Positions 46,685 to 64,000 of a DNA stretch of 64,000 nt are shown one piece after another (within the stretch, counting starts at the first letter, position 1; each line of letters starts with the position of its first letter). The stretch spans positions 7,269,001 through 7,333,000 of the forward strand of contig NZ_CP025394.1 in the NCBI RefSeq assembly GCF_002943525.1. The letters run 5' to 3'. Position numbers and translations under genes: made by a program. Source of the stretch: Kitasatospora sp. MMS16-BH015 (lineage in GTDB: Bacteria > Actinomycetota > Actinomycetes > Streptomycetales > Streptomycetaceae). Under the pieces are notes generated by a model. The model saw only the letters and a list, made by a program, of their open reading frames with translations. It searched no databases and had not been told where the DNA came from.

Positions 46685-46703
46685 TAAGGTTAGGTTTACC
46701 TAA
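46685..46703. promoter_or_regulatory. Iron box (DtxR/IdeR/DmdR type)
   Basis: TAAGGTTAGGTTTACCTAA agrees with the DtxR-family consensus TWAGGTTAGSCTAACCTWA at 17 of 19 positions, and its centre is the perfect palindrome GTTAGGT-TT-ACCTAAC (46689-46704). It ends 14 bases before the aminotransferase GTG. Repression under iron-replete conditions is the expected effect. Confidence 0.88.
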
Positions 46704-46717
46704 CTACGGGAGCCGTT

Positions 46718-48109
46718 GTGACCCTCACTGCCGAGCCTGCCGCCGAGCCGGTCAACGCCGCCGAAGCCACCCCGGGCGGGGCCATCCTGCGCCGCCAGCG
46801 CGTCCGCGAGTCCGCCGCGCGGACGTACGCGCGGTCCTTCCCGATCGTGCCGGTGCGGGCCCACGGCATGACGGTGGAGGGCGCCGACGGCCGGCGGTAC
46901 CTGGACTGCCTCTCCGGCGCCGGCACGCTGGCCCTCGGCCACAACCACCCCGAGGTGCTCGCCGCCATCCGGCGCACCCTGGACAGCGGCGCCCCGCTGC
47001 ACCTGCTCGACCTCGCCACCGCCGAGAAGGACGACTTCACCAGCGCCCTCTTCGCCTCCCTGCCAGCGGAGTTCGCCACCGGCGCCAAGGTGCACTTCTG
47101 CGGCCCGGCCGGCACCGACGCGGTCGAGGCCGCGCTCAAGCTGATGCAGACCGCCACCGGCCGCCGGGGCGCGCTCGCCTTCACCGGGGCCTACCACGGC
47201 ATGACCGCCGGAGCCCTCGCCGTCACCGCCAACGTGGCCGTCAAGGCCCCCCTGCCCAGCGGTGGCGAGACCACCCGGCTGCCCTACCCCTACGCCTACC
47301 GCTGCCCGTTCGGGGTCGGCGGCGAGCGCGGCACCGAGCTGGCCGCGACCTACGTGCAGCGGCTGCTCGACGACCCTTCCGGCGGGGTGCTGCCGCCCGC
47401 CGCGATGATCCTGGAGGCGGTGCAGGGCGAGGGTGGGGTGGTGCCCGCGCCGGACGGCTGGCTGCGGGAGATGCGGCGGATCACGGCCGAGCGGGGGATC
47501 CCGCTGATCGTGGACGAGGTGCAGACCGGCGTGGGCCGGACCGGGGCGATGTGGGCCGTCGAGCACAGCGGGGTGGTGCCCGACGCGATGGTGCTCTCCA
47601 AGGCGATCGGCGGCAGCCTGCCGCTGGCCGTGGTGGTCTACCGCGAGGAGTACGACGGCTGGCTGCCCGGCGCGCACACCGGCACCTTCCGGGGCAACAC
47701 CCTGGCGATGGCGGCCGGCGCCGCCACCCTGCGGTACGTGGCCGCCCACGGCCTGGCCGAGCGGGCCGCCCGGCTCGGCGAGCGGATCACCGCCCGGCTC
47801 CGGGAGGCGCAGCACCGCCTCCCGGTGATCGGCGAGGTCCGCGGCCGGGGCCTGATGCTCGGCATCGAGCTGGTCGACCCGACCGGCGAGCCCGACAGCT
47901 GCGGTGCCCACCCGGTCGACCCGGCCCTGGCCGTCCGGGTCCGCGCGGCCTGCCTGAGCCGCGGCCTGATCGTGGAGCTCGGCGGGCGGCACGACGCCGT
48001 GCTGCGGCTGCTGCCGCCGCTGACCATCACGGACGAGCAGGTGGAGGCGGTGCTCGACCGCCTGACGGACGCGATCGAGGCGGCGAGCGCGGGCGAGGGT
48101 GCCCGGTGA
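46718..48109 (+). CDS. Diaminobutyrate--2-oxoglutarate aminotransferase
   Basis: 463-residue class III PLP aminotransferase converting aspartate semialdehyde to L-2,4-diaminobutyrate with glutamate. Landmarks: LDCLSGAGTLALGHNHPEVLAA, CGPAGTDAVEAALKL, FTGAYHGMTAGALAVT, LEAVQGEGGVVPAP, VDEVQTGVGRTG and PLP Lys295 in LSKAIGGSLP. The closest known uses are 1,3-diaminopropane or ectoine pathways; the adjacent decarboxylase indicates the former. GTG 46718 follows GGGAG; an iron box overlaps its promoter. Confidence 0.9.
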   Translation: MTLTAEPAAEPVNAAEATPGGAILRRQRVRESAARTYARSFPIVPVRAHGMTVEGADGRRYLDCLSGAGTLALGHNHPEVLAAIRRTLDSGAPLHLLDLATAEKDDFTSALFASLPAEFATGAKVHFCGPAGTDAVEAALKLMQTATGRRGALAFTGAYHGMTAGALAVTANVAVKAPLPSGGETTRLPYPYAYRCPFGVGGERGTELAATYVQRLLDDPSGGVLPPAAMILEAVQGEGGVVPAPDGWLREMRRITAERGIPLIVDEVQTGVGRTGAMWAVEHSGVVPDAMVLSKAIGGSLPLAVVVYREEYDGWLPGAHTGTFRGNTLAMAAGAATLRYVAAHGLAERAARLGERITARLREAQHRLPVIGEVRGRGLMLGIELVDPTGEPDSCGAHPVDPALAVRVRAACLSRGLIVELGGRHDAVLRLLPPLTITDEQVEAVLDRLTDAIEAASAGEGAR

Positions 48110-49689
48110 GCAGGCGTTCGACGGGAGGTCTCGGGGCGGGGACGGCGCTCTCGGGCGGGGTCGGTGGGGCGGCCGCGCTCGAGCCGCTGGTCGAGCAGGT
48201 GCTGGCCGGGCTGGCGGCCGGGGCGGCGCGCCGCGGCGGGCCGGTGCCGGCCGCCGACCCGGCGGAGCTCGCCGAGGTGGCGGCGGCGGTGTTCGGCCAC
48301 CGGGCCGACCTCCGGGCTGACCGGGGCGACCACCGGACTGATCACCAGGCCGACCTCCGGGCTGACCACCGGGTCGGCTACGAGGCTGTCGACCAGGCCG
48401 CCGGCGGTGAGCCGGACGCGTTACTGCGGCTGACCGAGTTCCTGGCCTACGGGAGCGCCGATCCGGCGGAGCCGGCCTGTGCGGCGCACCTGCACTGCCC
48501 GCCGCTGGCGGTCGCGGTGGCGGCGGATCTGGCGGTGAACGCGCTCAACCCCTCGCTCGACTCCTGGGACCAGGCGCCGGTGGCCACCACGCTGGAGACC
48601 ACGCTGGTGGGGGAGTTGGCCGCGCTGGTCGGGTTCCCGGCGGAGCAGGCGGCCGGGGTGCTGACCTCCGGGGGCACGGAGTCGAACCTGATGGGGCTGA
48701 TGCTGGCCCGGGACCAGATCCTGCCCACCGACGTGGAGTTGGACGGGCTGCCGAGCGGGCTGCGGCCGGTGATCGTGGCCTCGGAGGCGGCCCACTTCTC
48801 GGTGCAGCGGGCCGCTGCGCTGCTCGGGCTCGGCGAGCGAGCGGTGCGGCCGGTGCCGGTGGACCGGGAGCTGCGGATGGACCCGGCGGCGCTGGCGGAG
48901 GTCCTGGCCGAGACCACGGAGGAGGGCGGCACGCCGATCGCGGTGGTGGCCACGGCCGGGACGACCGACACCGGGGCCGTCGACCCGCTGCACCGGGCCG
49001 CCGATCTGGCCGCCGAGTACGGGACCTGGCTGCACGTGGACGCGGCGTACGGCGGCGGGGCGCTGCTCTCGCCCAAGCTCGCCCCGCTGCTGGCCGGGAT
49101 CGACCGGGCCGACTCGGTCTCGCTGGACTTCCACAAGCTGGGCTGGCAGCCCACCGCCGCCGGGGTGTTCCTGGTGCGGCGGGCCGCCTCGTACGCCTCG
49201 CTGACCCGCCGCGCGGTCTACCTCAACCCCGAGGACGACGAACTCGCCGGCTACCCGAGCCTGCTCGGCCGCTCGCTGCGCACTACCCGCCGGGCCGACG
49301 CCTTCAAACTCGCCGTCACCCTGCGGACCTTGGGCCACTCCGGCCTCGGCGAGCTGGTGGACACCTGCCACGGCCTGGCCCTGGCCGCCGCCGAGGCGGT
49401 GGCCGCCGAGCCCGCGCTGGAGCTGCACTGCCCGCCGATCCTCACCACCGTGGTGTTCCGCTACCGGCCCATGGGCGGCGACCCGGCCGAGGCCGACCGG
49501 TGCAACGCCGAACTGCGCCGGGTGCTGCTGCGCACCGGCCAGGCGGTGGTCGGCCGCACCGAGCTGCCCGGCCGGGGGCCGGGCCGGGTGCGGCTGAAGC
49601 TCACCCTGCTCAATCCGCACACCTCGCCCGCCGCCCTCGCCGGGCTGCTCGCGGCGGTGGTGGCGGCCGGCCGCGCGGTCGAGGCCTGA
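48106..49689 (+). CDS. L-2,4-diaminobutyrate decarboxylase
   Basis: 527-residue group II PLP decarboxylase giving 1,3-diaminopropane. Core: HLHCPPLAVAVAADLAVNALN, TSGGTESNLMGLMLARD, EAAHFSVQRAAALLGLG, VVATAGTTDTGAVDPL, WLHVDAAYGGGALLSP and Lys344 in LDFHKLGWQP. GTG overlaps the aminotransferase stop (GTGA). Near the N-terminus a His/Asp/Arg-rich insertion (HRADLRADRGDHRTDHQADL) is encoded by a repeat; the 19-mer GCCGACCTCCGGGCTGACC occurs at 48304 and 48349. Together with the aminotransferase it mirrors rhbA-rhbB of rhizobactin 1021 synthesis. Confidence 0.9.
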   Translation: MSRRSTGGLGAGTALSGGVGGAAALEPLVEQVLAGLAAGAARRGGPVPAADPAELAEVAAAVFGHRADLRADRGDHRTDHQADLRADHRVGYEAVDQAAGGEPDALLRLTEFLAYGSADPAEPACAAHLHCPPLAVAVAADLAVNALNPSLDSWDQAPVATTLETTLVGELAALVGFPAEQAAGVLTSGGTESNLMGLMLARDQILPTDVELDGLPSGLRPVIVASEAAHFSVQRAAALLGLGERAVRPVPVDRELRMDPAALAEVLAETTEEGGTPIAVVATAGTTDTGAVDPLHRAADLAAEYGTWLHVDAAYGGGALLSPKLAPLLAGIDRADSVSLDFHKLGWQPTAAGVFLVRRAASYASLTRRAVYLNPEDDELAGYPSLLGRSLRTTRRADAFKLAVTLRTLGHSGLGELVDTCHGLALAAAEAVAAEPALELHCPPILTTVVFRYRPMGGDPAEADRCNAELRRVLLRTGQAVVGRTELPGRGPGRVRLKLTLLNPHTSPAALAGLLAAVVAAGRAVEA

Positions 49690-50178: not shown

Positions 50179-50925
50179 ATGAGTGACCTGCTCCTGAGCA
50201 CCACCGCCCTCGACGTCACCGCCCCTCGCCCCGACCGCCTCGCCTTCGAGGCGCTGCCCTACTCCGGCGACTGCCGGCGGATCTGGCAGCGTGGTGACCA
50301 CCTCCTGATCGGCGTCAGCCCCGGCAACAGCTACTTCAGCCACCAGCGCATAGCCGAACTTCTCCTCTGGGCAGGCGAGTTGTTCGAGTCCATCGACATC
50401 GTCTACGCCGATCTCCAGGTGGAGGCCCAGTACGTCGCCGCCGGCTACGGCCCCGAGCACGCCCGGCGGCGGGCCGCCAAGGAGATCAAGACCACCCACC
50501 GCCGGATCCAGCGCGGGGTCGAGGCGGCCGGGCTGCCCGGGGTGGGGGTGCACGGGCTCTCCGCCTTCACCGGCGACCCGGCCTACCAGCGGCTGCACCG
50601 CAGCGTGCTGACCGCGCTGGAGGCCGACCGGGAGTTCCGCGAGGCCACCGAGGGGATGGCCCGGGCCTTCCTGGCCGCCCGGCTCGGCGCCGAGGTGACC
50701 CCGGCCGAACTCGCCGCCGGGGTCGCCTACATCGCCGCCGAGCTGCCGTTCTTCCTGGACACTCCGAGCCTGCTCGGCAAGCCCAGCTCCGTGGCCTGCT
50801 ACCACGTCCAACTCCCGCTCACTCCCGTCCTGTTCGGACGGGAAGAGGGCCTGCGGGCCGCCCCCGGCCAGGCGTACGCCGTGATCCGGCCGAAGGCGCA
50901 CCGGCCCCAGCCCGTAGCGGCCTGA
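50179..50925 (+). CDS. Cyclodipeptide synthase, probably cyclo(Tyr-Tyr)-type
   Basis: 248-residue tRNA-dependent enzyme that joins two aminoacyl-tRNAs into a diketopiperazine. The nucleophile Ser47 is in IGVSPGNSYFS, and the Tyr/Glu pair in GVAYIAAELPFFLDTPSLL matches the second family signature. The body includes DIVYADLQVEAQYVAAGYG and ARRRAAKEIKTTHRRI (basic helix for tRNA). Because the next gene is CYP121-like, the likely product is cyclo(L-Tyr-L-Tyr) as for mycobacterial Rv2275, though substrate choice cannot be read by eye. ATG 50179 with GGAAGG. Confidence 0.92.
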   Translation: MSDLLLSTTALDVTAPRPDRLAFEALPYSGDCRRIWQRGDHLLIGVSPGNSYFSHQRIAELLLWAGELFESIDIVYADLQVEAQYVAAGYGPEHARRRAAKEIKTTHRRIQRGVEAAGLPGVGVHGLSAFTGDPAYQRLHRSVLTALEADREFREATEGMARAFLAARLGAEVTPAELAAGVAYIAAELPFFLDTPSLLGKPSSVACYHVQLPLTPVLFGREEGLRAAPGQAYAVIRPKAHRPQPVAA

Positions 50926-50964
50926 ACCACCGAACGACCACCCCGATCAGGAGACGAACTCCCC

Positions 50965-52158
50965 ATGACCCAGGCCGAATTCACCTTCCCGCTGGACCGA
51001 CGCGGCGACGTGCTGCCGGCGGAGGCCGAACTGCTCCGCAGCAAGCACCCGGTGGCCAAGGTGACCACCCTGACCGGCGACCAAGCCTGGCTGGTCAGCA
51101 GCTACGCACTGGCCAAGCAGGTGCTGGAGGACGAGCGGTTCAGCCTCAAGGACACCGCCAACCCCGGCGTGCCGCGCCAGTACGCGCTGACCATCCCGCC
51201 CGAGGTGGTCAACAACATGGGCAACATCAACAGCGCCGGGCTGCGCGAGGCGGTGATGAAGACCCTCTCGCCGCGCGCCGACAAGGAGTTGGGCGGCTGG
51301 CTGGAGGCCGAGGCGCACCGACTGCTGGACGTGCTGGTGCGGCAGGGCCCGCCGGCCGACCTGCGGGACGGGTTCACCGAGCCGTACTCCGCCGCGCTGC
51401 ACTGCCGGCTGCTCGGCATCCCCACCGACGACTGGCGCCGGCTGATGTCCGGCATCGACCTGGCCTTCATCACCAGCCCGGCCGTGTTCGAGGGCTCGAC
51501 GCCCAACTGGTACCGCGATCTCGGCTACATGATGCGGCAGTTGAACGCCGACCCGGAGCCCACCGAGGGGCTGCTCGGGCGGTTCGCCGCGCTGCGCCGC
51601 TCGCCGGAGGCGGCCGACCGGGTGAGCGACGAGCTGCTCGCCACCGTGGCCCTGTCGCTGTTCGGCGCGGGCGCCGTCTCCACCTCCTCCTTCCTGCTGC
51701 ACGCGATCATCCACCTGGCCCAGCGGCCCGAGCTGGCCGAGCGGCTGCGCCGGGAGCCCGCCGTGATCGGGCGCGCGGTGGACGAGCTGCTGCGCTACAA
51801 CCTCTCGATCGGTGACGCGCTGCCCCGGCTGGCGATGGCCGACGTGCAGGTGGGGGAGGTGCTGGTGCGGGCGGGCGAGCTGGTGCTGGTGCTGATCGAG
51901 GGGGCCAACTACGACCCCGAGGTCTTCCCCGAGCCGGAGACGATCGACTTCGACCGGGCGAGCAACCCGCACCTGGCCTTCGGCGCGGGGCGCCACTTCT
52001 GCCCGGCCTCGGCGCTGGGCCGCACCCACGCCGAGATCGCCCTGGCCGCCCTGGTCGAGCGGCTGCCCGAGCTGCGGCTGGCCCTGCCGGTGGAGCAGCT
52101 GGCCTGGCGCCCCGGCTTCATCAAGCGCCTGCCGGAGCGGCTGCCCGTGCTCTGGTGA
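50965..52158 (+). CDS. Cytochrome P450 of the CYP121 (mycocyclosin synthase) type
   Basis: 397 residues, against 396 for CYP121A1 of M. tuberculosis, which couples the two rings of cyclo(Tyr-Tyr). From memory of that protein, very similar words include LVSSYALAKQVLEDERFSLK, ALTIPPEVVNNMGNINSAG, ADLRDGFTEPYSAALHC, LFGAGAVSTSSFLLHA (I-helix, Ser237 equivalent), PRLAMADVQVGEVLVRAGEL, LVLIEGANYDPEVFPEP and the end KRLPERLPVLW. Heme ligand Cys346 is in FGAGRHFCPASALG. The active-site Arg386 of CYP121 aligns with Lys here, a conservative change. Lies 39 bp after the CDPS gene. Confidence 0.9.
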   Translation: MTQAEFTFPLDRRGDVLPAEAELLRSKHPVAKVTTLTGDQAWLVSSYALAKQVLEDERFSLKDTANPGVPRQYALTIPPEVVNNMGNINSAGLREAVMKTLSPRADKELGGWLEAEAHRLLDVLVRQGPPADLRDGFTEPYSAALHCRLLGIPTDDWRRLMSGIDLAFITSPAVFEGSTPNWYRDLGYMMRQLNADPEPTEGLLGRFAALRRSPEAADRVSDELLATVALSLFGAGAVSTSSFLLHAIIHLAQRPELAERLRREPAVIGRAVDELLRYNLSIGDALPRLAMADVQVGEVLVRAGELVLVLIEGANYDPEVFPEPETIDFDRASNPHLAFGAGRHFCPASALGRTHAEIALAALVERLPELRLALPVEQLAWRPGFIKRLPERLPVLW

Positions 52159-52291: not shown

Positions 52292-53092
52292 TCAGCGGGC
52301 CAGGACGGCGCGGACGTGCTCCCAGGTGGCCTGGTCGGCGGCCACCAGCAGGCCGTCCGTGCCGCCCGGGGGCTCCGGCTGGTACGGCTCGCCGTCCAAT
52401 CGGGCGCAGACCCCGCCGGCCTCGGTGACCAGCAGGGTGCCGGGGGAGTGGTCCCAGGGCAGGGTGCGCCAGTAGAAGATGAAGTCCAGCTCGTCCGTGG
52501 CGATCAGCGGGTACTCGATGCCGGCGGCGCTGCGACCGCCGCAGATGTCGCCGAAGCTGCGGGCGTTGGTCTGGAACCGGTGGTGGGTGGCCGGGTCGAG
52601 GTAGCGGCTCTTCAGGATGCCGCGCCACTTCTCGGGCTGGTCGCCCGCCGCCGGGCGGGTGAGCCGGTGGCCGTCCCGCCAGGCGCCGGAGCCGAGCTCC
52701 GCCGCGTAGGCGACGCCGTGCGCGGGCTGCCAGATCCAGCTGGCCACGGTGCGGCCGGCGCGGACCAGGGAGGCCATCACGGCGTAGTCCGCCAGGCCGG
52801 CGACGAAGTTCGTGGTGCCGTCCACCGGGTCGACCAGCCAGGCGGCCTCCTCGGTCAGCAGCGCCCGGGCCAGCTCCGGATCGGCCGACACGGCTTCCTC
52901 GCCGACCACCGGCACCGGCAGCAGCTCGCGCAGCCGCCGGGAGATGATCGCTTCGGCCTCCCGGTCGGCGACGGTCACCACCTCACCGGGCGCCTTCTCC
53001 AGCACCTCCCCCGCCGCCAGGGCGCGGAACCGCGGCTCCACCGCCTCCGCCGACGCCTCGCGCAGGATCTGCGCGACCTTCTCCATCAGCAT
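52292..53092 (-). CDS. Inositol-monophosphatase family phosphatase
   Basis: 266 residues; Li-sensitive Mg-dependent phosphatase fold. Metal-binding motifs: VVGEEAVSADPE (Glu), WLVDPVDGTTNFVAGLADY (DPxDGT) and TLPWDHSPGTLLVTEAGG (WDxxxG). Substrate could be histidinol phosphate, inositol phosphate or another sugar phosphate. ATG 53092 has AAGGGAG. It lies 88 bp after the siderophore-operon decarboxylase on the same strand, so it may be the last gene of that transcript or independent. Confidence 0.88.
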   Translation of the reverse strand: MLMEKVAQILREASAEAVEPRFRALAAGEVLEKAPGEVVTVADREAEAIISRRLRELLPVPVVGEEAVSADPELARALLTEEAAWLVDPVDGTTNFVAGLADYAVMASLVRAGRTVASWIWQPAHGVAYAAELGSGAWRDGHRLTRPAAGDQPEKWRGILKSRYLDPATHHRFQTNARSFGDICGGRSAAGIEYPLIATDELDFIFYWRTLPWDHSPGTLLVTEAGGVCARLDGEPYQPEPPGGTDGLLVAADQATWEHVRAVLAR

Positions 53093-53180
53093 CTGCCCGC
53101 TCCCTTCGGTCACCCCCACTCTCCCACGGCGACCCGGCGCGGACCTGCACCGGGCCTGTACGGGTGCCGAAGGCGTCAGC

Positions 53181-54371
53181 TCACCCCAAGAAGTGGAAGT
53201 CCGGGCGCGGATGCATCAGGAATTCGTGGTGCGAGATGTTCCAGGCGTACGCCCCGGCCATCGCGAACAGCACCCGGTCACCCGCTCGGAGGGCGGTCAC
53301 CGGGGCGTCCTGGGCCAGGACGTCCTTCGGGGTGCAGAGCTGACCCGAGAGGGTGACCCGGCCGGTGCCGACGGCCGGCCGGGGCCAGGGGTGCGGCCAG
53401 CTCTCGACCGGGGTGACGGTGAAGGGCTGGGAGTGGCCCCGGGTGGCGGGGGTGCGCAGGTGGTGGGTGCCGCCGCGCACCACGGCGAAGTCCTCGCCGT
53501 GGCTGCGCTTCACGTCCAGCACCTCGGTCGCGTACCAGCCGCAGTACGCGGTGAGCGCCCGGCCCGGCTCGATCCGCAGGGTCAGTCCGGGGTGGGCGGC
53601 CAGCAGCTCGGCCAGGCCCGCGCCGAACGCCTTCCAGTCGAACCGGGCGGTGGGGTCGGCGTAGTCCACCGCCATGCCGCCGCCGACGTTGACCTCGGCG
53701 AGCTCGAAGCCGTGCCGCTCGGCGAGCGCCGCCGACCAGCCGACGATCCGCCTGGCCAGGGCCAGCTGCTCGGCCGCGTCCAGGCCGCTGGCCAGGTGGG
53801 CGTGCACCCCGCGCAGCCGCAGCCGCTCGAAGCCTGGCCCGGCGAGCAGCCGGACGCACCCCTCCACCTGCTCCGGGTCGAGCCCGAACGGGGTGGGCCG
53901 GCCGCCCATGGCCAGCGCCACCGAGCTGAGCTGGCCGGAGCCGACCGGCAGGTTGGCCCGCAGCAGCACGTCCACCGGCTCGGTGGCCAGCTGGGCCAGC
54001 AGCCGCAGCTCCTGCTCGCTCTCCACGTGCCAGCGGCGCACCCCGAGGGCGAGCGCGGCGGCGATCTCGGCCGGGGTCTTGCCCGGCCCGCCGAAGGCCA
54101 GCGGCGCCTGCGGCACGGTGGCCCGGACATGCGCCAACTCGCCGCCGGAGGAGACCTCGTAGCCGTCCACCAGCCCACTGAGCGCGGCCAGGATCGGCGC
54201 CTCGGGGTTGGCCTTGGCCGCGTAGTACAGCTCCACTCGCTCGGGCAGCGCGGCCCGGACGGCGCCGACGTGCTCCCGCAGATCGGCCAAGTCGTAGACG
54301 TAGCTGGGGAGTTGCTCGGAGCCAAGGGTGTCGAGCAGGGCGCGGACAGCGGGGGTGGCGGGGGCGCTCAT
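53181..54371 (-). CDS. PLP-dependent decarboxylase of fold III (PvsE/SbnH/LysA-like)
   Basis: 396 residues, alanine-racemase/ornithine-decarboxylase-type fold. PLP Lys53 in ELYYAAKANPEAPIL; phosphate loop FELAEVNVGGGMAVDYADP; LRIEPGRALTAYCGWYA; active-site Cys/Asp loop GQLCTPKDVLAQD; and C-terminal AMAGAYAWNISHHEFLMHP. In siderophore clusters such enzymes decarboxylate citryl-amino acid intermediates or amino acids (PvsE in vibrioferrin, SbnH in staphyloferrin B). ATG overlaps the stop of the NIS synthetase (ATGA). It stands in the last position of the five-gene operon, as pvsE does. Confidence 0.85.
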   Translation of the reverse strand: MSAPATPAVRALLDTLGSEQLPSYVYDLADLREHVGAVRAALPERVELYYAAKANPEAPILAALSGLVDGYEVSSGGELAHVRATVPQAPLAFGGPGKTPAEIAAALALGVRRWHVESEQELRLLAQLATEPVDVLLRANLPVGSGQLSSVALAMGGRPTPFGLDPEQVEGCVRLLAGPGFERLRLRGVHAHLASGLDAAEQLALARRIVGWSAALAERHGFELAEVNVGGGMAVDYADPTARFDWKAFGAGLAELLAAHPGLTLRIEPGRALTAYCGWYATEVLDVKRSHGEDFAVVRGGTHHLRTPATRGHSQPFTVTPVESWPHPWPRPAVGTGRVTLSGQLCTPKDVLAQDAPVTALRAGDRVLFAMAGAYAWNISHHEFLMHPRPDFHFLG

Positions 54372-56095
54372 CGGCCACCGCCCAGCGCGGCCTGGGCCAG
54401 CACCTCGGCGGCGAGCGGCGAGGGCAGCGGGACGTACCCGGCCTCCCGGTCGGCCTTGCGCTCCCAGCGGGTCATCAGATTGGCCTTCGCGGGCAGCGGC
54501 ACCCCGGCCAGCAGCGCGCTCAGCCGTGGCGGGCAGCCGTGCTGCTGCGCGTACTCCTCCAGCACGGCCCGCACGGCCGCCCAGAACTCCGGCTCCAGCT
54601 CCGGGTGCCGGTCGCTCAGCGCGGAGACCAGCTCGGAGAGGTGGTTGACCAGCAGGCAGTAGACCACCCGGTCCCAGCCGCGCTGCGCGTCGTAGCTCAT
54701 CGGGGCGGCCACCTCCGGCGGCAGCGCGGCCAGGGTGGCCGCGTTCTGCTCCGGCAGCAGCTTGGTGCCCTCCAGGTCGCGGAAGAGCACCTGGGCCGGG
54801 CGGCCCTCGGCGTCCACCCCCAGCACCACGTTCTGCAGGTGCGGCTCCAGCACCACGCCGTGGTCGAAGTAGGCCGCCAGCACCGGCGGCACCACCAGCT
54901 TCAGGTACGCCGCCCACCACTCGCCCGCCTGCTCGGGGCCGGCGTCGGCGAGCAGCACCGACAGGTGCGCCGAGCTGGTCGGGTACTCGTCGGCCACGGC
55001 CGCCGCCAGCAGCGGGGTGACGCCCGGGCGAAGCCGCCCGGCCAGGCCCTCGCGGACGATCAGGCCGAAGCCCTCGAACAGCGCCTGGTCCACCCGCCCG
55101 TCCGGGCCCGGCAGGGCCAGGGTGCGGAAGGCCGGCTCGCGCAGCATCGCCGCGTCGGGGAAGCGCTGCTCCAGGTCGGCCAGCGGCCCGGCCAGCACCC
55201 GGTCCAGTTCCACCGCGCCGGTCAGCTCGTACGCGGCGTTCTTGCGCAGACAGTTGGTGATCCGCACGTTCAGGCTGAACTTGAGGAAGGCGCCCGCACC
55301 GGCCAGGGTGCGCACCGAGGCGGTCGGGGTGAACGGCTCGCCGGCCTCGCCCAGGTCGAGCACGTCACCGCGCTCGATCGCGGCCAGCAGCAGCGGGTGG
55401 TCGCCGATCAGCTCGTACTGCCAGGGGTGGGCGGGCAGCAGCCGGTAGCCCGCCGGCACGGTGGCCAGACCGTCCAGCAGGGCCAGCGCGGCCGGGTCGG
55501 TGGCCCGCTCGGCGATCAGCTCGCTGCGCACCGCCAGGTGGCGCAGCCGGAACGAGGCGCGGGCCTCCGGCGCGTACGCCGACCAGGAACCGCGCTCGGC
55601 GGAGCGGGACTTGGGGGCCGGGTGGAAGCGGTGGCCGTAGAGCAGGGCCTGCTCCGACTCCAGGTACCGGTCCGGTCCGGGGGCCGGGCGGTCGGCCAGG
55701 GCGGCGGTGATCCCGGCGTGGCTGGAGGTGAGTTGGGGGAGGAACTCCTCGTTGCTGACGCCGCTGCGCAGGGTCAGCTCGGCCTGGACGTGCTCGGCCA
55801 GCTCGCGCCAGCTGAGCTCGCGCGGGCCCTGGGCGGTCTGCTCCTGCACCGGGCCGGTGAAGCGGTGGGCGCCGGAGAGCGAGGTGCGGCGCAGCCGGAC
55901 GCGCAGCTCGACGCCGCGGCGGGGCAGCCGCAGGCGGAGCCGGCCGTCGGCGACGGCGGTCTGGTGCTCGGGGGCGGAGACCTCGCGGAGCAGGCAGTTG
56001 AGCAGGGTGTGGGCCACGGCCTCGTCGGCGCCGGGGAGTTCGGGGGCGCCATGGAGAGCGGTGGCGGTGCGGTTCGCGGTGGCGGTGGTGGGCAT
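54368..56095 (-). CDS. IucA/IucC-type NRPS-independent siderophore synthetase (PvsD-like position)
   Basis: 575 residues. NIS synthetases adenylate a carboxylate (often citrate) and couple it to an amine or alcohol. Family elements: LYGHRFHPAPKSR (ATP-binding His), YRLLPAHPWQYELI, TPTASVRTLAG, FLKFSLNVRITNCLRKN, then the FhuF-like domain ARG/HGVVLEPHLQNVVLG and VLFRDLEGTKLL, with VYCLLVNHLSELVSAL near the end. The ATG at 56095 overlaps the MFS gene stop (TGATG). Acyl substrate cannot be read by eye. Confidence 0.92.
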   Translation of the reverse strand: MPTTATANRTATALHGAPELPGADEAVAHTLLNCLLREVSAPEHQTAVADGRLRLRLPRRGVELRVRLRRTSLSGAHRFTGPVQEQTAQGPRELSWRELAEHVQAELTLRSGVSNEEFLPQLTSSHAGITAALADRPAPGPDRYLESEQALLYGHRFHPAPKSRSAERGSWSAYAPEARASFRLRHLAVRSELIAERATDPAALALLDGLATVPAGYRLLPAHPWQYELIGDHPLLLAAIERGDVLDLGEAGEPFTPTASVRTLAGAGAFLKFSLNVRITNCLRKNAAYELTGAVELDRVLAGPLADLEQRFPDAAMLREPAFRTLALPGPDGRVDQALFEGFGLIVREGLAGRLRPGVTPLLAAAVADEYPTSSAHLSVLLADAGPEQAGEWWAAYLKLVVPPVLAAYFDHGVVLEPHLQNVVLGVDAEGRPAQVLFRDLEGTKLLPEQNAATLAALPPEVAAPMSYDAQRGWDRVVYCLLVNHLSELVSALSDRHPELEPEFWAAVRAVLEEYAQQHGCPPRLSALLAGVPLPAKANLMTRWERKADREAGYVPLPSPLAAEVLAQAALGGGR

Positions 56096-57333
56096 CAGGC
56101 GCTCCGTCGGGTGAGGCGGGCAGGCCGGGGGAGGAGGGTGAGGGCGAGGGCGGCGAGCGCGGTGGCGGCACCGGCCAGCACGGGAGCGGTCGGGCCGTAG
56201 CCGCTGTTGACCAGCGCGGCGACCACTCCGGCGGCCACGGCGCCGCCCTTGGAGACGAGTTCGAGGGTGCCGAACATCCGGCCGGGCGGGCGTCCGGCGG
56301 CGGCGGTGGCCGCGAGCACCGAGAGGCAGACCAGGCCGAGGGTCATCCCGGCGCCGAGCACCAGCCGGGCCAGCACGAAGGCGGGCAGCGAGTGGGCGTA
56401 CCAGTGGCCGGCCAGGCCCGCGGTGACCAGGGCGAAGCCGAAGGCCATGCCGGCCGTCGGACGGTGCAGGAAGAGGGTGTGCACCCGCCCGGCGAAGGCC
56501 AGGTAGCACAGGTGCGGCAGCGCGAAGAGCAGGCCGGAGAGGGTGCCGGAGACCCCGGGCAGCCGCTGTTCGACCAGGGCGATCAGGTACGGGTAGGAGA
56601 CGATCGTCGAGAAGACGAAGGCGAACTCCAGGGTGTACAGCAGCCGGAGCGGTCCGGGCTGCCGGGGCGCGGCGGTGGCGGCACCGGAGTCGGCCGGGCG
56701 GGCCGGCTCGGGCAGCCGGGCCAGCAGCAGGGCGGCGGCCAGCGGCAGCACCGCCATCACCAGGTACTGCCGGTGCGGGGAGATCCACGGCGAGAGCGCG
56801 CCGACCAGGATCGGTGCGGCCACCAGCGCGGCCCGGGCGCTGCCCTGCATCAGGGTGAGCGCCTTGGAGAGCTGCGGGCCCTCCAGGGCGGCGGCCAGGT
56901 AGCCGTTGGTGGCGGCGAAGGTGCCGCCGAGGAAGCCCTGGAGCACCAGGGCCACCGTGAAGGCGCGCAGGCTGTCGGCCGCCCCGGCGAGCAGGAAGGA
57001 GACGGCGAGCCCGAGTTGGGCCCGCAGCAGCAGCCGTTTGCGGCCGAACCGGTCGGCCAGATGGCCCCAGAGCGGGGCGCCGAGCGCGCTGAAGACGGTC
57101 GGCACGATGTACAGCACCCCGGCCCAGCTGCCGCTCGGGTCACCGAGCTTGGGGAGGATCGCGGTCAGGTAGGGCGGCAGGCCGAGGGCGGCGAAGGAGG
57201 CGACGAAGTAGCAGGCGGCCACGGCGTGCACCTGGCGGCGGCCGAGCCCGGCCGGGGCGGGCGGCGCGGCGGGTGCGGCGGCCGCACCGGGTTCGGTGGG
57301 CTCGGCGGGCCGCGCCGCCGGGGCGCTCAGCAC
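56095..57333 (-). CDS. MFS transporter, probable siderophore exporter (PvsC-like position)
   Basis: 412 residues, about 12 helices. Signature between helices 2 and 3: LWGHLADRFGRKRLLL; helix 1 AVAACYFVASFAALGLPPYL; other membrane segments include FVFSTIVSYPYLIALV and AGMAFGFALVTAGLAG. The Ala/Pro-rich cytosolic N-terminus (about 30 residues) is low complexity. GTG 57333 starts just inside the end of the preceding synthetase gene (stop 57327-57329). Sandwiched between two NIS synthetases, exactly as pvsC is. Confidence 0.88.
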   Translation of the reverse strand: MLSAPAARPAEPTEPGAAAAPAAPPAPAGLGRRQVHAVAACYFVASFAALGLPPYLTAILPKLGDPSGSWAGVLYIVPTVFSALGAPLWGHLADRFGRKRLLLRAQLGLAVSFLLAGAADSLRAFTVALVLQGFLGGTFAATNGYLAAALEGPQLSKALTLMQGSARAALVAAPILVGALSPWISPHRQYLVMAVLPLAAALLLARLPEPARPADSGAATAAPRQPGPLRLLYTLEFAFVFSTIVSYPYLIALVEQRLPGVSGTLSGLLFALPHLCYLAFAGRVHTLFLHRPTAGMAFGFALVTAGLAGHWYAHSLPAFVLARLVLGAGMTLGLVCLSVLAATAAAGRPPGRMFGTLELVSKGGAVAAGVVAALVNSGYGPTAPVLAGAATALAALALTLLPRPARLTRRSA

Positions 57334-59129
57334 TCCACCTGCTCGGTCGGAAGCTGCTCGGCCTGCTCGGCCTGCCCGGTCGGAGTGGCCTGCCCGTCCT
57401 GCCTGGCCTGCCCTTCCTGCTCGGTCGGGACCTGCTTGGTGGGTACCGCCAGGTAGTTGGGGCCGGTGGTGTAGTGCTTGTTGATGTCGGCGGCGCCGGA
57501 GCGCTCCTTGCTGAGCAGGCTGCCGGCCGTGACCATGGCCTTCACCGGGAGCTCCGCCGCGTCCAGCAGGGCGGTGCGCAGCGGCTGCCCGGCCGGGCCG
57601 AGCCGGTCCACGGCCTCGGTGAGGTGGGATCGGAGCAGGCCTAGGGTGCGGCCGAGCGGGGCGTGGCCGTGGGCGGCCAGGCCGAAGGCGAGTGAGGCCG
57701 CGCAGAGGTGGCCGGTGATGGTGGTGAACAGGTCGGTGAGCGGGCGGTCGCTCGGCGCGGCCACTCGGTGGTCGTCGAACTCGGCTGCGAAGTGGGCCAG
57801 TTCGCCCATCCGTTCGGGGTTGACCCGAGGGCCGTCGTTGTCCTTGTAGAGCAGCCGCAGCCGGGTGCGGCCCTCGTGGTGGTCGAGCACCAGCGAGGTG
57901 TTCTGCTGGTGGCTCTCCAGCGCGATGCCGTGGCCGAAGAGGGTGGTCTGCCAGTCGAGCAGCAGGGCCAGGAAGGCCTCGTACAGCGCGAGCGGCGAGC
58001 CGGCGTAGTACCGGTCGGCCAGGTGCTCGACCACCGGGCGCCCGTCGGGGGCGGTGGCGAGCAGCGCGGCCAGCGGCACGGTGACGGCCTGCTCCAGGCC
58101 GGCCGGGTAGCGGCGGGCCAGCACGGCGATCAGCTCGTGGTCGGCGTGGGCGTAGCACTGCTCGTCGGCCAGCAGGATCCGCCCGGCCAGCCGGGGCTCG
58201 CGGGCCAGCACGGCCTCCAGCATGCGCTGGCCCACCGCGCCGTCCACCAGTGTGCCGGGCTTGACGGTGCGTCGGTTGCGCAGGCCCAAGGTGGCGGTGG
58301 TGAGCGGCAGTTTGAGGTGGAGCGCCGGGTCCTGGACGACGGCGACGGTGCGCATCGACAGGGTGGGCAGCACCTCCAGATACGGCCGGTCGGCCAGTAC
58401 GGCCCCGGGCAGGGCGGCCGGCGCCGCCTCGGCGGTGAGCGGGTGCACCGGCACGGTCAGGTGCGGGCCGGTCAGCCCGGTGAGGCCCAGCTGCTCGGGG
58501 GAGGGCCACCAGCCGGGCAGCGGGGCGCGGCCCTCGACGGTGAGCTCGGCGGCCGGCACGGCCAGCCAACGGAGCAGGAAGGAGGAGTGGAACTCCGGCG
58601 CGTACGACGCCAGTTGCTCCTCGTCCAGGCCGGATCGGCCGCGCGCGGTCGGGTAGACCGGGTGGTCGAGGTAGGCCGCCAGGGTGTCGAAGGCCAGGCT
58701 CGGGCCCAGGCCGCGCCAGTCGGCCGGGTCGGCGCCGTACCGCTCGGCCAGGCCGGCCAGCACCTCGGGCTGCACCCGCTCGTGCAGCCGCATGGTGGCC
58801 AGGGTCTGCCCGCACTCCTCGGCGAAGGCCGCGTACCCGGGCCGGTCGCCGGGCTCGGCCAGCTCGGCCAACGCGGCGATCAGGGAGTCGAGTTCGCGGT
58901 GGGTGACGCCGTCCACCAGCAGCAGGGGCAGCCGGGCGGTGTACGTGCTCTGGAAGCCGTCCGCGGTGACCGGCAGGGCCAGCCGCTCGCCGGCCAGCCA
59001 GGGGCCGTCCGGGCGCTGCTCCAGGGTGGTGGCCGAGCGCAGGCCGGCCACGTCCTCGCGGAGCAGGGCGCCGAGCACGCGCAGGGTCAGCAGCTCCTCG
59101 ACGGCGGTCGTGGTGGTCGGGGTGGTCAC
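57327..59129 (-). CDS. IucA/IucC-type NRPS-independent siderophore synthetase (PvsB-like position)
   Basis: 600 residues. Landmarks: HPVYPTARGRSGLD (ATP-binding), LTVPVHPLTAEAAP, LPTLSMRTVAVVQDPALHLK, LPLTTATLGLRNRRTV, HGIALESHQQNTSLVLDH, RLLYKDNDGPRVNPERM and DLFTTITGHLCAASL. The domain ends near NYLAVPTKQ; beyond it is a 35-residue Gln/Glu/Ala/Pro tail (QARQDGQATPTGQAEQAEQ) built by short tandem repeats (57340-57440) and ending in Cys. GTG overlaps the ATP-grasp stop (GTGA). Confidence 0.92.
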   Translation of the reverse strand: MTTPTTTTAVEELLTLRVLGALLREDVAGLRSATTLEQRPDGPWLAGERLALPVTADGFQSTYTARLPLLLVDGVTHRELDSLIAALAELAEPGDRPGYAAFAEECGQTLATMRLHERVQPEVLAGLAERYGADPADWRGLGPSLAFDTLAAYLDHPVYPTARGRSGLDEEQLASYAPEFHSSFLLRWLAVPAAELTVEGRAPLPGWWPSPEQLGLTGLTGPHLTVPVHPLTAEAAPAALPGAVLADRPYLEVLPTLSMRTVAVVQDPALHLKLPLTTATLGLRNRRTVKPGTLVDGAVGQRMLEAVLAREPRLAGRILLADEQCYAHADHELIAVLARRYPAGLEQAVTVPLAALLATAPDGRPVVEHLADRYYAGSPLALYEAFLALLLDWQTTLFGHGIALESHQQNTSLVLDHHEGRTRLRLLYKDNDGPRVNPERMGELAHFAAEFDDHRVAAPSDRPLTDLFTTITGHLCAASLAFGLAAHGHAPLGRTLGLLRSHLTEAVDRLGPAGQPLRTALLDAAELPVKAMVTAGSLLSKERSGAADINKHYTTGPNYLAVPTKQVPTEQEGQARQDGQATPTGQAEQAEQLPTEQVEC

Positions 59130-60325
59130 GGGGTGATCTCCCAGGTGTTGGCGGCGATGAACTCGGCGACGGTGCGGTCGACTTCGCCCTGGTCCGGGCC
59201 GATGGCCCAGATCACGCCGAGGTAGTCGCGGTTGGTGCGGTAGTGCTCGTGGTGCTCGCCGATCGGGCGCAGCGGGCGGTAGGCCAGCCGGACGCCGTCG
59301 CGGACCAGGTCGGTCGGGCCGGGGGCGGCGGTGAGGGTGCCGGCGCGGTCGGCGCAGACCACCTCGTTGCGGGCCCGCTGGTCGGTGCGGGCACCCAGGT
59401 CGGCCGGGAGCGGGCGGCCCAGGTGGGCGCCGAGCACCAGCTCGAAGTACGGGACGGCCAGGATCTGCGCGAGCATCAGGTCGCACTGGTCGCCGATGGC
59501 CCGGTAGTTGACCTCGATCAGTCGTACCCGGCCGTCCGGCTGCACCACGAACTCGGTGTGGCAGGCGCCGAACGACACGCCCAGGGCGTCGAGTTGGTCG
59601 AGCACCTGGTCGGTGACCGGCTGCGGGTGGGCGGGCACGAAGGTGAGCACCTCCTCGACGAACTGCGGCGGCGGGGAGAGCCGGGTGTGGAAGCCGCCGA
59701 GTACGTGCCGGCGGCCGTGGCCGTCGCCCAGGGTCTCCAGGGTGTGCAGCTCGCCGTGCAGGAACTCCTCCACCACCAGCACCGCTCCGGGCCGGCGGTG
59801 CCGGATCGCCTTGCAGTGCAGGGCCAGCTCCTCGGCGTCGGCCGCCAGCGCCACGTCCTCGCTGGCCACGCCCTCGCGGGGCTTGACCACGCAGGGGAAC
59901 GGCGGGTCGAGCTCGGCGCTCTCCCGGCCCGGGGGCAGCTCGGCCGACCAGACCTCGTCCAGCCCGGCCAGCGCGAGGTGGCGGCGCAGCTCGGCCTTGT
60001 TCTTGGCCCGCAGGGTGGCCTGCCAGCTCTTGCCCGGCAGCCCGAAGTACTCGGCGGCCAGCGCGGTCTGGGTCTGCAGGTGGTCGCTGTTGCTGAACAC
60101 TGCGGCCGGGGCGTCCAGCCGGGAGATCAGGCTGATCACCTCCCAGTGGTCGCGCACCGGGCACTCCACCACCTCGGGGGCGAACTCCAGCCCTTGGTAG
60201 GCACGTTGGTGCTCGGCGACGGAGTCGGTGAGCACCGTGACGGAGAGGCCGAGTCTCGCGGCGGCGGGCAGGAAGCCCTGGGTGACGGAGTCGGTGGGGT
60301 TCAGGGCCAGCAGGTACAGCCGCAC
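59126..60325 (-). CDS. ATP-grasp ligase (PvsA-like position)
   Basis: 399 residues; carboxylate-amine ligase superfamily. Visible: N-terminal Rossmann-like start LYLLALNPTDSVTQGFLPAA, PCVVKPREGVASEDVALA (Lys for ATP), AVLVVEEFLHGELHTLETLG, and the Mg/ATP residues in VRLIEVNYRAIGDQCDLML. In the vibrioferrin operon the first gene, pvsA, is also an ATP-grasp enzyme adding an amino acid. GTG 60325 with GAGAGGA; the gene follows the Fe-siderophore binding protein after 72 bp containing a hairpin. First gene of the five-gene overlap chain. Confidence 0.87.
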   Translation of the reverse strand: MRLYLLALNPTDSVTQGFLPAAARLGLSVTVLTDSVAEHQRAYQGLEFAPEVVECPVRDHWEVISLISRLDAPAAVFSNSDHLQTQTALAAEYFGLPGKSWQATLRAKNKAELRRHLALAGLDEVWSAELPPGRESAELDPPFPCVVKPREGVASEDVALAADAEELALHCKAIRHRRPGAVLVVEEFLHGELHTLETLGDGHGRRHVLGGFHTRLSPPPQFVEEVLTFVPAHPQPVTDQVLDQLDALGVSFGACHTEFVVQPDGRVRLIEVNYRAIGDQCDLMLAQILAVPYFELVLGAHLGRPLPADLGARTDQRARNEVVCADRAGTLTAAPGPTDLVRDGVRLAYRPLRPIGEHHEHYRTNRDYLGVIWAIGPDQGEVDRTVAEFIAANTWEITP

Positions 60326-60357
60326 GACGAAGAGTCCTCTCGGTGGTTCGGGGGAGC

Positions 60358-60384
60358 GGGGGCGGGCGGGTTTCGCCCACCCCC
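60358..60384 (-). terminator. Stem-loop between the binding-protein gene and the ATP-grasp gene
   Basis: GGGGG-C-GGGCG (60358-60368) faces CGCCC-A-CCCCC (60374-60384) across a 5-nt loop with one mismatch. In this position a partial terminator would let the lipoprotein gene be expressed more highly than the biosynthetic operon, a common arrangement. Confidence 0.55.
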
Positions 60385-60397
60385 GAGGGGCAGCGGC

Positions 60398-61399
60398 CTA
60401 CTTGGGGGCGTCGACGCCCGCGGCCTTGGCGATGTCGCCGAGCATCGCGTCGGCGGCCTGCACGCCGATGCCCGACATCCAGGTCTCGTCCGGCACGGTG
60501 AAGACCTTGTTGTTCTGGACGGCCTTGAGGCCCTTCCAGACCGGGGTGCCCTGGATCTCGCTCTCCTTGGTCTTGGTCGGGTCGTCGGCGGTGGTGACGA
60601 AGACCAGGTCGGCGTCGGCCTGGTTGATCTGCTCGGCGCTGACCTCGCTCATCGCCTTCTCCAGGTCCGGGTTGGCCGGGCGGTTCAGGCCCACGTCGGT
60701 GAGCACGGTGCCGCTGAAGGAGGCCTTCTGGTAGAGCCGGGTCGGGCCGGCGACGAAGCGCACCACCGAGGCGGTCGGCATGGTGCCGTTGTACTTGGCC
60801 TTGATCTCGGCGCCCAGCTTGGCGGCCCGGGCCTGGTAGTCGGCCAGCGCCTGCTTGGCCTCGGCCTCCTTGCCCAGGGCCTTGGCGTAGAGGGCCAGGT
60901 TCTCCTTCCAGGGCTGGCCGGTGGTCTCGGCGAGCACGGTGGGCGCGATCGCGTTGAGCTTGGCGTAGACCTTCTCGTGGCGCACCTTGGAGGAGAGGAT
61001 CAGGTCGGGCTTGAGCGAGGCGATCAGCTCCAGGTTGGGCTCGGCCATCGGGCCGACGTCCTTGGTGCCGGAGATCTTCGACTTGAGGTAGTTGGGGAAG
61101 CCGCCCTCGGTCTTCATGTGCGGGGAGACGGCGCCCAGCGGGGTGATGCCCAGCAGGGTCACGTCGTCCAGCTCGCCGCTGTCGAGCACGACCACCCGCT
61201 TGGGCTGGGCCTTGAGCTCGGCGGTGCCCATCGCGTGCTTGACGCTGCGCGGGAAGGCGGCGGCGGCGTCGCCGGCCGGCTTGTCGGTGGCGGGGACGGA
61301 CTCCTTGTCCACGGTGTTGCCGCTGCTGCCGCAGGCGGTGAGCAGACCGGCGGAGACCGCGACGGAGAGGACGGCGAGCGGCAGACGGCGCTGGAGCAT
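60398..61399 (-). CDS. Iron-siderophore ABC transporter substrate-binding lipoprotein
   Basis: 333 residues, FecB/BtuF fold (class III binding protein with a single linking helix). Lipobox LLTAC, Cys23. Mature part: PKRVVVLDSGELDDVTLLGITPLGAV, VGPMAEPNLELIASLKPDLIL, YQKASFSGTVLTDVGL and DADLVFVTTADDPTKTKES. ATG 61399 with AAGGAAG. It captures the ferric siderophore for the permease pair encoded just upstream on the same strand; equivalent to PvuB. Confidence 0.93.
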   Translation of the reverse strand: MLQRRLPLAVLSVAVSAGLLTACGSSGNTVDKESVPATDKPAGDAAAAFPRSVKHAMGTAELKAQPKRVVVLDSGELDDVTLLGITPLGAVSPHMKTEGGFPNYLKSKISGTKDVGPMAEPNLELIASLKPDLILSSKVRHEKVYAKLNAIAPTVLAETTGQPWKENLALYAKALGKEAEAKQALADYQARAAKLGAEIKAKYNGTMPTASVVRFVAGPTRLYQKASFSGTVLTDVGLNRPANPDLEKAMSEVSAEQINQADADLVFVTTADDPTKTKESEIQGTPVWKGLKAVQNNKVFTVPDETWMSGIGVQAADAMLGDIAKAAGVDAPK

Positions 61400-61491: not shown

Positions 61492-62397
61492 TTACGCGGT
61501 GCGGGCGCGCCGCGCGAAGGGGACGACCAGCGGGGTGCCGGTCTCGGGGTCGGGGATGATCCGGCAGGGCACCTGGAAGACCCGCTCGACCAGCTCGGCC
61601 GTGAGCACCTCGGCGGGCGGCCCGGCGGCGGCCAGCCGGCCGCCGTCGAGCACTACCAGGTGGTCGGCGTAGCGGGCCGCCTGGCCGAGGTCGTGCAGCA
61701 CCATGACCACGGTGCGGCCGGCCTCGGCGTGCAGCTCGGAGACCAGGTCGAGCACCTCCAGTTGGTGGCGCAGGTCGAGGAAGGTGGTCGGCTCGTCCAG
61801 CAGCAGCAGCTCGGTCTCCTGGGCCAGGGCCAGGGCCAGCCAGGCGCGTTGACGCTGGCCGCCGGAGAGCTGGTCGACCTGGCGGTCGCGCAGCTCGGCG
61901 GTGCCGGTGCGCTCCAGCGCCCGCTCCACGGCGGCCTGGTCGGCGGCCGACCAGGGGCTGAGCATCCGCTGGTGCGGGTAGCGGCCCAGCCGCACCAGCG
62001 CCTCGACGGTGATCGCCTCCGGGGTGACCGGCTGCTGCGGCAGCAGGCCGAGTCGCTTGGCCAGCGCCCGGGCGGGCAGTCGGTGGATGTCCGCTCCGTC
62101 CAGGGTGACCTGGCCGGCGCTGGGGGCCAGCAGGCGGACCAGGCCGCGCAGCAGGGTGGACTTGCCGCAGGCGTTCGGGCCGACGATCGCGGTGACGGCG
62201 CCGCCGGGCAGCTCCAGGTCCAGGCCCTGGACGATCGCGCGGTCGCCGTAGCGCAGGTCGAGCCGGTGCGCGGCGAGTCGGTTGCCGGTCGGCCGGTCGC
62301 CGGTGCTCGTCCGGTCGGCGGCCTCGGTGGCAGCGGTGTCCGTACCGGCCAGGATGGTGGGGCTCACGGCGGGCTGGTTCCTCTCGGTGCGGTTCAC
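61492..62397 (-). CDS. Iron-siderophore ABC transporter ATPase
   Basis: 301 residues, FecE/FepC type. Walker [20 protein letters not shown] (with CGK as in FepC proteins), Q-loop [20 protein letters not shown], signature [18 protein letters not shown], Walker [13 protein letters not shown], switch [21 protein letters not shown] 62397 overlaps the permease stop (GTGA); a second GTG about 11 codons later, preceded by GAGAGGA, is also possible. The first 40 residues are not part of the ABC fold. Confidence 0.93.
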
Positions 62398-63458
62398 GAG
62401 GCGCTCCGGTGGGCCGGGCGGCGGATCATCAGGGCGAGCAGCCAGGGCGCGCCCAGGGTCGCGGTGACGGCACCGACCGGGAGGCCGCTGACCGGCAGCA
62501 CGTGCAGGGCGAGGTGGTCGGCCGCGAGCAGCAGCAGGGCGCCGGTGAGGGCGGTGAGCGCCAGGGTGGCCGGGGTCGGCGGGCCGGCCAGCAGGCGGAC
62601 CAGGTGCGGCACGGCCAGCGCGACGAAGGCGACCGGGCCGGTCAGCCCGGCGGCGAGCGAGGCGATCACCACGGCGAGCAGCAGCAGGCCGAGCCGGGCC
62701 CGGTCGGCGGTCAGGCCGAGGCCGCCGGCCGAGTCGTCGCCGAGGTCGAGCACGGCGAGCCGACGCTGGGCCAGGAAGGCGGCCAGGCAGGTGAGCAGGA
62801 TCGCCACCCCGCCGACCGAGACCTCCGTCCAGGTGCGGCCGTAGAGCGAGCCGGTGGTCCACTGCAGCGCGGAGGCGGCCAGTTCGGCCGGGAAGCGGAC
62901 GATCATCAGGTTGACCGCCGCCGCCAGCCCGGCCTGCACCGCGAGCCCGACCAGCACCAGCCGGGAGACGGCGACCTTGGCCCGCCAGGCGAAGCCGCCG
63001 AGCAGCACCGCGGCGAGCAGGCCGCCGCCGACCGCGCCCAGCGGGATGAGCGCCTGGCTGGCGCCGGTGGCCAGCAGCAGCACGGCGCCGAAGGAGGCGC
63101 CGCCGGTCACGCCCACCACGTCCGGGGAGGCCAGCGGGTTGCGGAACAGCCGCTGGAGCAGCGAACCGGAGACGGCCAGTCCGGCACCCGCGATCAGCGC
63201 CGAGACCACCCGGGGCGCGCGGAACTGCTGGACCACCAGCACGTCGCCGCCGTCGCCGGACCCGAACAGGGCGCGCAGCGCGGTGGCGAACGGGAGCTTC
63301 ACCTGACCGGTGCTCAGCGCGAGGCCGGTGAGCAGGACGAGCAGGGTGGCGGCCAGCGCGCAGAGCAGCAGGCTGCGGCGGCGGGCCCGCGCCAGGGCGG
63401 AGGGCTTGGTGGCGGCGGAGGCGTTCGGGGCGGCCGAGGTGTTCGGGGGAGGGTTCAT
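62394..63458 (-). CDS. FecCD family iron-siderophore permease
   Basis: 354 residues, about ten membrane helices. Family segments: [45 protein letters not shown], reported here in pieces as [20 protein letters not shown] and [36 protein letters not shown]; and [19 protein letters not shown]. Partner of the next permease, with which it forms a heterodimer; start overlaps that gene's end (ATGA). Confidence 0.93.
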
Positions 63459-64000
63459 CGGGCGGCCTTCTTCGCCAGCAGGGCGAGCAGCGGGGCGCCG
63501 AGGAAGGCGGTCACGATGCCGACCTCGATCTCGCTGGGGCGGGCCACCACCCGGCCGAGCACGTCGGCGCCGAGCAGCAGGACGGCGCCGGCCAGCAGGC
63601 AGCCGGGCACCAGCCAGCGGTGGTCGGCGCCGAGCAGCGGGCGGACCAGGTGCGGGGCGGCCAGGCCGATGAAGACGACCGGCCCGGCCACGGCCACCGC
63701 GCCCGCGGCGAGCAGCACCACGGCCAGCCCGCCGATCAGCCGCACCCGGGTGACCGGCACGCCGAGCGCCTGGGCGGTCTCGTCGCCGAGGGCGAGCGCG
63801 TTGAGCGCCGGGGAGACGGCCAGTGCGAGCACCAGGCCGACCAGGATCAACGGCAGTACGGGCCAGAGCACCTGGAGCCCGCGCCCGCTCAGCGAGCCGG
63901 CCAGCCAGAACCGGGCCTCGTCGAGGGTGCGGTGGCTGGCGAGCATCAGCGCGGAGGTCCAGGAGGCGAGCACCGCGGTGAGCACGGTGCCGCCGAGTGC
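63455..64000 (-). CDS. FecCD family iron-siderophore permease, N-terminus beyond window
   Basis: Only the C-terminal ~180 residues are inside. [58 protein letters not shown] and [21 protein letters not shown] are typical of this family. Its stop overlaps the start of the second permease. The promoter of the transport operon, and any iron box there, lies outside the window. Confidence 0.92.

Follow-up and report, generated by a model that had tools for sequence, protein, structure and literature searches.

The operon at the end of the analysed stretch of Kitasatospora DNA probably directs the synthesis and export of a polycarboxylate siderophore of the vibrioferrin type, the re-uptake of its ferric complex and the release of the metal, all under the control of iron. 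The stretch of 64,000 nucleotides (the window) covers positions 7269001-7333000 of the host genome of 8.96 Mb, which is a single contig. Comparison of related loci shows in addition that the family exists in two forms, one with transport genes and a four-gene form that lacks the exporter and the binding protein. This division is new here.

All genes of the operon lie on the minus strand, in the 5' to 3' order FecCD, FecCD, ATPase, substrate-binding lipoprotein (SBP), ATP-grasp, NIS1, MFS, NIS2 and PLP decarboxylase, where NIS1 and NIS2 are the two IucA/IucC synthetases (Table 1). The junctions from ATP-grasp to PLP decarboxylase overlap by 1-4 bases, and the start of the MFS gene (TTG) is uncertain. 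Pfam E-values run from 1e-12 (ATP-grasp) to 1e-45 (NIS2) and therefore exclude chance. A sequence-only reading had described the five overlapping biosynthetic and export genes, with the lipoprotein and then the ATPase and FecCD permeases ahead of them. Both parts of this description are borne out by the coordinates, the shared strand and the Pfam matches, and dozens of independent genomes show the identical arrangement of genes. The interval given in that reading spans the five genes and the SBP gene, and leaves out the ATPase and FecCD genes that it named. The FhuF reductase and the iron boxes lie beyond the window and so were outside its view. A Pvu-like uptake set (SBP, two permeases and ATPase) adjoins the biosynthetic genes. 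No TonB-dependent outer-membrane receptor of the PvuA type was seen among the genes flanking the operon, as expected since the host is Gram-positive. ARAGORN places a tRNA-Arg at window 62241-62325 (+), antisense within the ABC ATPase gene, which is most likely a false positive.

Table 1. Genes and predicted iron boxes of the siderophore locus. Positions are those of the window unless marked as genome positions.
Feature	Position	Strand	Basis
FecCD-type iron-siderophore permease 1	63455..64000, running to genome 7333486 (486 bases past the window)	-	PF01032 4e-90 for the whole gene (L046:459-1487:-); syntenic in related loci
FecCD-type permease 2	62394..63458	-	PF01032 4.6e-74; 4-base overlap with permease 1
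ABC ATPase (FecE/FepC type)	61492..~62367	-	PF00005; best NCBIfam match FecE 2e-93, under the curated cut-off
Ferric-siderophore-binding lipoprotein (SBP)	60398..61399	-	PF01497 9e-34; lipobox LTAC; nearest solved structures YfiY 3tny and SirA 3mwf
PvsA-type ATP-grasp ligase	59126..60325	-	PF13535; 33-50% to Pvs-type ATP-grasps; nearest solved structure L-amino-acid ligase 3vot
NIS1, PvsB-type IucA/IucC synthetase (probably type B)	57327..59129	-	PF04183/PF06276; 99/99 clade with Pvs-type NIS1, sister AcsA
PvsC-type MFS exporter	56095..~57330	-	PF07690; 33-46% to MFS of Pvs-type clusters
NIS2, PvsD/AcsD-type IucA/IucC synthetase (type A, citrate)	54368..56095	-	AcsD 2w02 8e-70; AcsD active-site motifs kept; tree
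PvsE-type fold-III PLP decarboxylase	53181..54371	-	PF02784/PF00278; SbnH 6knh 4e-84; PLP lysine and CTPKD kept
FhuF-type gene (locus L046)	genome 7333608-7334390	+	60% identity to FhuF-type proteins beside related clusters
Iron box TTAGGTGAGGCTTACCTAA	genome 7333498-7333516		sequence match
Iron box GTAGGCGAGCCTAACCTAA	genome 7333567-7333585		sequence match

Beyond the window edge a divergent gene encodes a FhuF-type protein. Its relatives beside related clusters carry the FhuF 2Fe-2S domain PF11575, and the host protein itself matches FhuF and siderophore-reductase models weakly, under their cut-offs. Two predicted DmdR/IdeR-type iron boxes (17/19 and 16/19 by sequence match) lie between this gene and the first permease. 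A box of at least 15/19 is found upstream of the operon at 69 of 85 related loci, compared with 38 of 1700 size-matched random segments. The two boxes, the divergent FhuF gene and the recurrence of boxes at related loci together place the operon and FhuF in one divergent unit that is predicted to be iron-regulated.

The proteins were compared with those of annotated reference clusters from plasmids of V. fortis (pLMG21557), Pantoea soli, C. necator (pHG1), Piscirickettsia salmonis and Rhodococcus sp. WAY2, with V. fortis and Pantoea standing in for the Pvs proteins of V. parahaemolyticus. All five reference clusters share the order ATP-grasp, NIS, MFS, NIS, PLP, and Fec-type uptake genes adjoin those of V. 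fortis, Piscirickettsia and Rhodococcus. The ATP-grasp of Pantoea soli is annotated as 'siderophore biosynthesis protein PvsA'. Each of the five Kitasatospora genes finds its match in these clusters, within a range of 31-54% identity: 33-50% for the ATP-grasp, which aligns over its full length to the Pvs-type proteins of all five genera, 32-41% for NIS1, 33-46% for the MFS, 31-46% for NIS2 and 42-54% for the PLP enzyme.

Trees agree with this assignment. Pvs-type ATP-grasps form a branch (99/99) separate from other ATP-grasps. In a tree of 39 NIS synthetases NIS1 joins its counterparts from Pvs-type clusters (99/99), and AcsA is sister to this group. NIS2 shares a branch (94/89) with AcsD and every Pvs-type NIS2, whereas the type C proteins and the host genome's other NIS pair lie elsewhere. 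Each synthetase thus falls in the PvsB-like or PvsD-like/AcsD clade that its gene position indicates, and not among unrelated pathways. The motifs point the same way. NIS2, whose closest solved relative is AcsD, keeps TxSxRT, KxSxxVRxTNCxRKN, EPHxQN and RDLEGTKL, and NIS1 carries other motifs, which are specific to the Pvs type (PTLSxRT, KxPL...RTxKP, QQN and KDND). The closest solved relative of the decarboxylase is SbnH, and its GGTHHxRTP is shared with all Pvs-type rows of the alignment, where AcsE has GGTHQFRLP and SbnH GGTQQFRLP. A siderophore pathway related to vibrioferrin, as the sequence-only reading proposed, is therefore supported by the ATP-grasp identity, the matching clades of the two synthetases and the decarboxylase motif. 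Judged by sequence the pathway is of the Pvs type, and this does not imply vibrioferrin as its product. Recent transfer from Vibrio is not supported: for both synthetases the actinobacterial proteins form clades of their own. In the ATP-grasp tree the deep branches are not separated.

A likely course of synthesis can be drawn from the achromobactin enzymes, of which AcsD joins citrate and serine and AcsE decarboxylates. NIS2 would adenylate citrate, probably drawn from central metabolism, and couple it to L-serine to give citryl-serine, which the PLP enzyme (PvsE/AcsE) would decarboxylate to citryl-ethanolamine. The ATP-grasp ligase (PvsA) would add an amino acid, probably alanine, and NIS1 (PvsB) would add 2-oxoglutarate, which would then cyclise. 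Export of the finished siderophore would fall to the MFS protein and uptake of the ferric complex to the lipoprotein SBP with the two FecCD proteins and the ATPase; the divergent FhuF-type protein would reduce the iron, and DmdR/IdeR would repress the intergenic promoters under iron-replete conditions. The proposed building blocks of vibrioferrin are one each of ethanolamine, alanine, 2-oxoglutarate and citrate (PMC5577590). The order of the steps, the substrates and the exact product are what we infer. Reviews assign the vibrioferrin steps otherwise, with PvsA as the ester-forming enzyme, and one of them describes the individual steps as untested (PMC5577590), so that the order above is tentative. 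Gene content, orthology to Pvs-type clusters, catalytic motifs and iron boxes are by comparison read directly from the sequence. Central metabolism is the presumed source of citrate because the window holds no dedicated citrate synthase (SbnG/AcsB-like). A citrate-synthase-like gene is present in the clusters of Rhodococcus, Cupriavidus, Pantoea and three Streptomyces; in the last (L103, L113 and L118, all of the full form) a citrate-synthase/aldolase-like gene lies downstream, as in Rhodococcus and Cupriavidus.

Whether the operon yields exactly the vibrioferrin of Vibrio is a narrower matter, for which we would put the chances at somewhat below even. The complete set of five Pvs genes in unchanged order, the conserved catalytic motifs and the lack of any extra tailoring gene in the operon favour identity. 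However, at identities of 31-54% the amino acid or the amine could differ, and the sequence does not reveal the specificity of the ATP-grasp. Since the actinobacterial synthetases form separate clades, the substrates may have drifted, alanine giving way to a different amino acid or serine to a different amine. A product like achromobactin or staphyloferrin B, built from citrate, diamine and 2-oxoglutarate units, is very unlikely. The resemblance of NIS2 to AcsD and of the PLP enzyme to SbnH, and the position of AcsA as sister to NIS1, are what such a product would lead one to expect. Yet NIS1 groups with the Pvs-type proteins and the PLP motif is that of the Pvs type rather than of AcsE or SbnH, and the operon contains neither an AcsC-type third synthetase nor a diamine-making gene. 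The achromobactin cluster examined (acs of Sodalis pSG1, L045) shares AcsD-type and AcsE-type enzymes, an SBP and Fec genes with the Kitasatospora operon, but has AcsC, AcsA, a citrate-synthase-like gene and a transaminase, and no ATP-grasp. The operon therefore lacks both marks of an achromobactin cluster, an AcsC-type third synthetase and the absence of an ATP-grasp.

A diamine might alternatively come from nearby. At window 46685-49689 (+) an iron box, TAAGGTTAGGTTTACCTAA, directly precedes genes for a diaminobutyrate aminotransferase and an RhbB-like diaminobutyrate decarboxylase. If this pair (46718-49689) fed 1,3-diaminopropane into the operon the result would be a diamine-containing hybrid siderophore. 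The pair is 3.5 kb from the operon with its own iron box, and the synteny is kept in many Kitasatospora loci; but the decarboxylase occurs in 69 of 70 genomes of the genus, including those that have no operon, and its distribution matches that of a second NIS cluster (68/70), which makes the hybrid very unlikely. That second cluster (L047, genome 6112000-6131000) lies 1.2 Mb from the pair and includes an amine N-monooxygenase, with no diamine-making genes in the stretch read. The pair and L047-type clusters are each present in nearly all genomes of the genus, and on this co-occurrence the pair is unlikely to belong to the vibrioferrin-type pathway. The L047 cluster is the likely user of the pair, in a split rhizobactin/schizokinen-like pathway. 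Two other neighbours were considered and rejected. The inositol monophosphatase gene (52292-53119) is not a sixth gene of the operon; it stands beside a P450 gene in Kitasatospora only, and other families do not have it adjoining the operon. The P450 (50965-52158) is not a tailoring enzyme of the pathway, as it is on the opposite strand to the operon and pairs with a cyclodipeptide synthase (PF16715, 3e-76). These two genes (window 50179-52158, +) are syntenic beside the siderophore operon in several Kitasatospora, and are likely a CDPS-P450 natural-product pair.

The vibrioferrin-type operon falls into a family whose two forms were compared at 92 loci, five of them the reference clusters from other groups. 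An MFS gene lies between NIS1 and NIS2 at 66 loci, the five reference clusters included, of which 56 also have SBP and FecCD; the four-gene form (ATP-grasp, NIS1, NIS2, PLP) accounts for 26 loci, 22 of them without SBP or FecCD, and contig ends may affect these SBP and FecCD counts. The call on the MFS is unaffected, because its position is flanked by two genes that are seen. FhuF is kept at 19 of the 26 four-gene loci (L053, L067, L069, L075 and L099 are examples without MFS or SBP/Fec, usually with FhuF). A FastTree tree of the four shared proteins shows at least 13 switches between the two forms, and in some Kitasatospora the four-gene form is at the same inositol monophosphatase/P450 site as the full form. 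In seven Kitasatospora genomes with the four-gene form, MFS and SBP orthologues are missing genome-wide, with only paralogues of 34-48% present; both orthologues are present, at 74-81%, in six genomes that have the MFS, and three genomes without the operon have neither.

Within Kitasatospora 53 of 70 genomes carry the ATP-grasp, leaving out one further match that is a 33% paralogue (G018). A scan of named genomes gave at least 593 stretches matching the ATP-grasp motifs, 566 of which were confirmed as ATP-grasp relatives. The best 80 of these 566 are almost all from Streptomyces and Kitasatospora, with Kribbella, Catenulispora and Actinacidiphila also represented, and the closest named loci among the matches listed are those of Kitasatospora xanthocidica and other Kitasatospora. 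Even sampling across the phylum gave few carriers, mostly of the same family, which is a lower bound as only four candidates were scored per genome.

The likeness to the pvsABCDE-pvuABCDE system of V. parahaemolyticus, compared through the colinear V. fortis plasmid cluster (L035, 32-44% identity), lies in five orthologous genes in order with FecBCD-type uptake alongside. The Kitasatospora operon differs in having no TonB-dependent receptor beside it, in uptake genes that head the same operon where those of Vibrio are divergent, and in its divergent FhuF reductase and DmdR/IdeR-type boxes. The closest annotated reference cluster (41-54%) is that of Rhodococcus sp. WAY2 pRWAY01 (L038), with the five genes in order, SBP and Fec; it has an extra citrate-synthase/aldolase-like gene, whereas the window has none. 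In S. avermitilis avsA-D (SAV_7320-7323) comprises three synthetase components and a diaminopimelate-decarboxylase-like gene (PMC9394381), and going by gene count would fit the four-gene form without MFS. It was named a vibrioferrin-like polyhydroxycarboxylate siderophore cluster in 2022 (PMC9394381), antiSMASH 'vibrioferrin' has been reported in S. tunisialbus (PMC7385001), and the announcement of Streptomyces sp. GQFP, which carries the full form (L105), cites a vibrioferrin paper for its siderophores (PMC9022529). The cluster type is thus already known by annotation and is wider than the sequence-only reading supposed. That reading knew of no characterised actinobacterial case; this agrees with the literature covered as far as an isolated product goes, but not for clusters named as vibrioferrin-like. 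Neither an isolated actinobacterial vibrioferrin-type product nor a paper naming both vibrioferrin and Kitasatospora was found in literature that mostly excludes subscription journals, and for that reason the absence of a product is weak evidence.

We suggest, speculatively, that actinobacteria may have an old, self-standing Pvs-type branch in which the ATP-grasp attaches a residue other than that of vibrioferrin. Many lineages would repeatedly have lost the exporter and binding protein dedicated to the product but retained its biosynthesis and the FhuF reductase; export and uptake might then have passed to other transporters, or the molecule been repurposed, for example as an intracellular or shared metal ligand. 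Pairs of close relatives with and without the transporter offer a natural means of studying how a siderophore of weak binding is retained or shared by its producers, and the operon a Gram-positive system for settling the order of vibrioferrin assembly. Pvs-type clusters are usually treated as a trait of marine proteobacteria, but Kitasatospora and Streptomyces commonly carry them, together with a complete uptake route of the Gram-positive kind. A carboxylate siderophore is therefore likely in soil actinomycetes that are best known for desferrioxamines.
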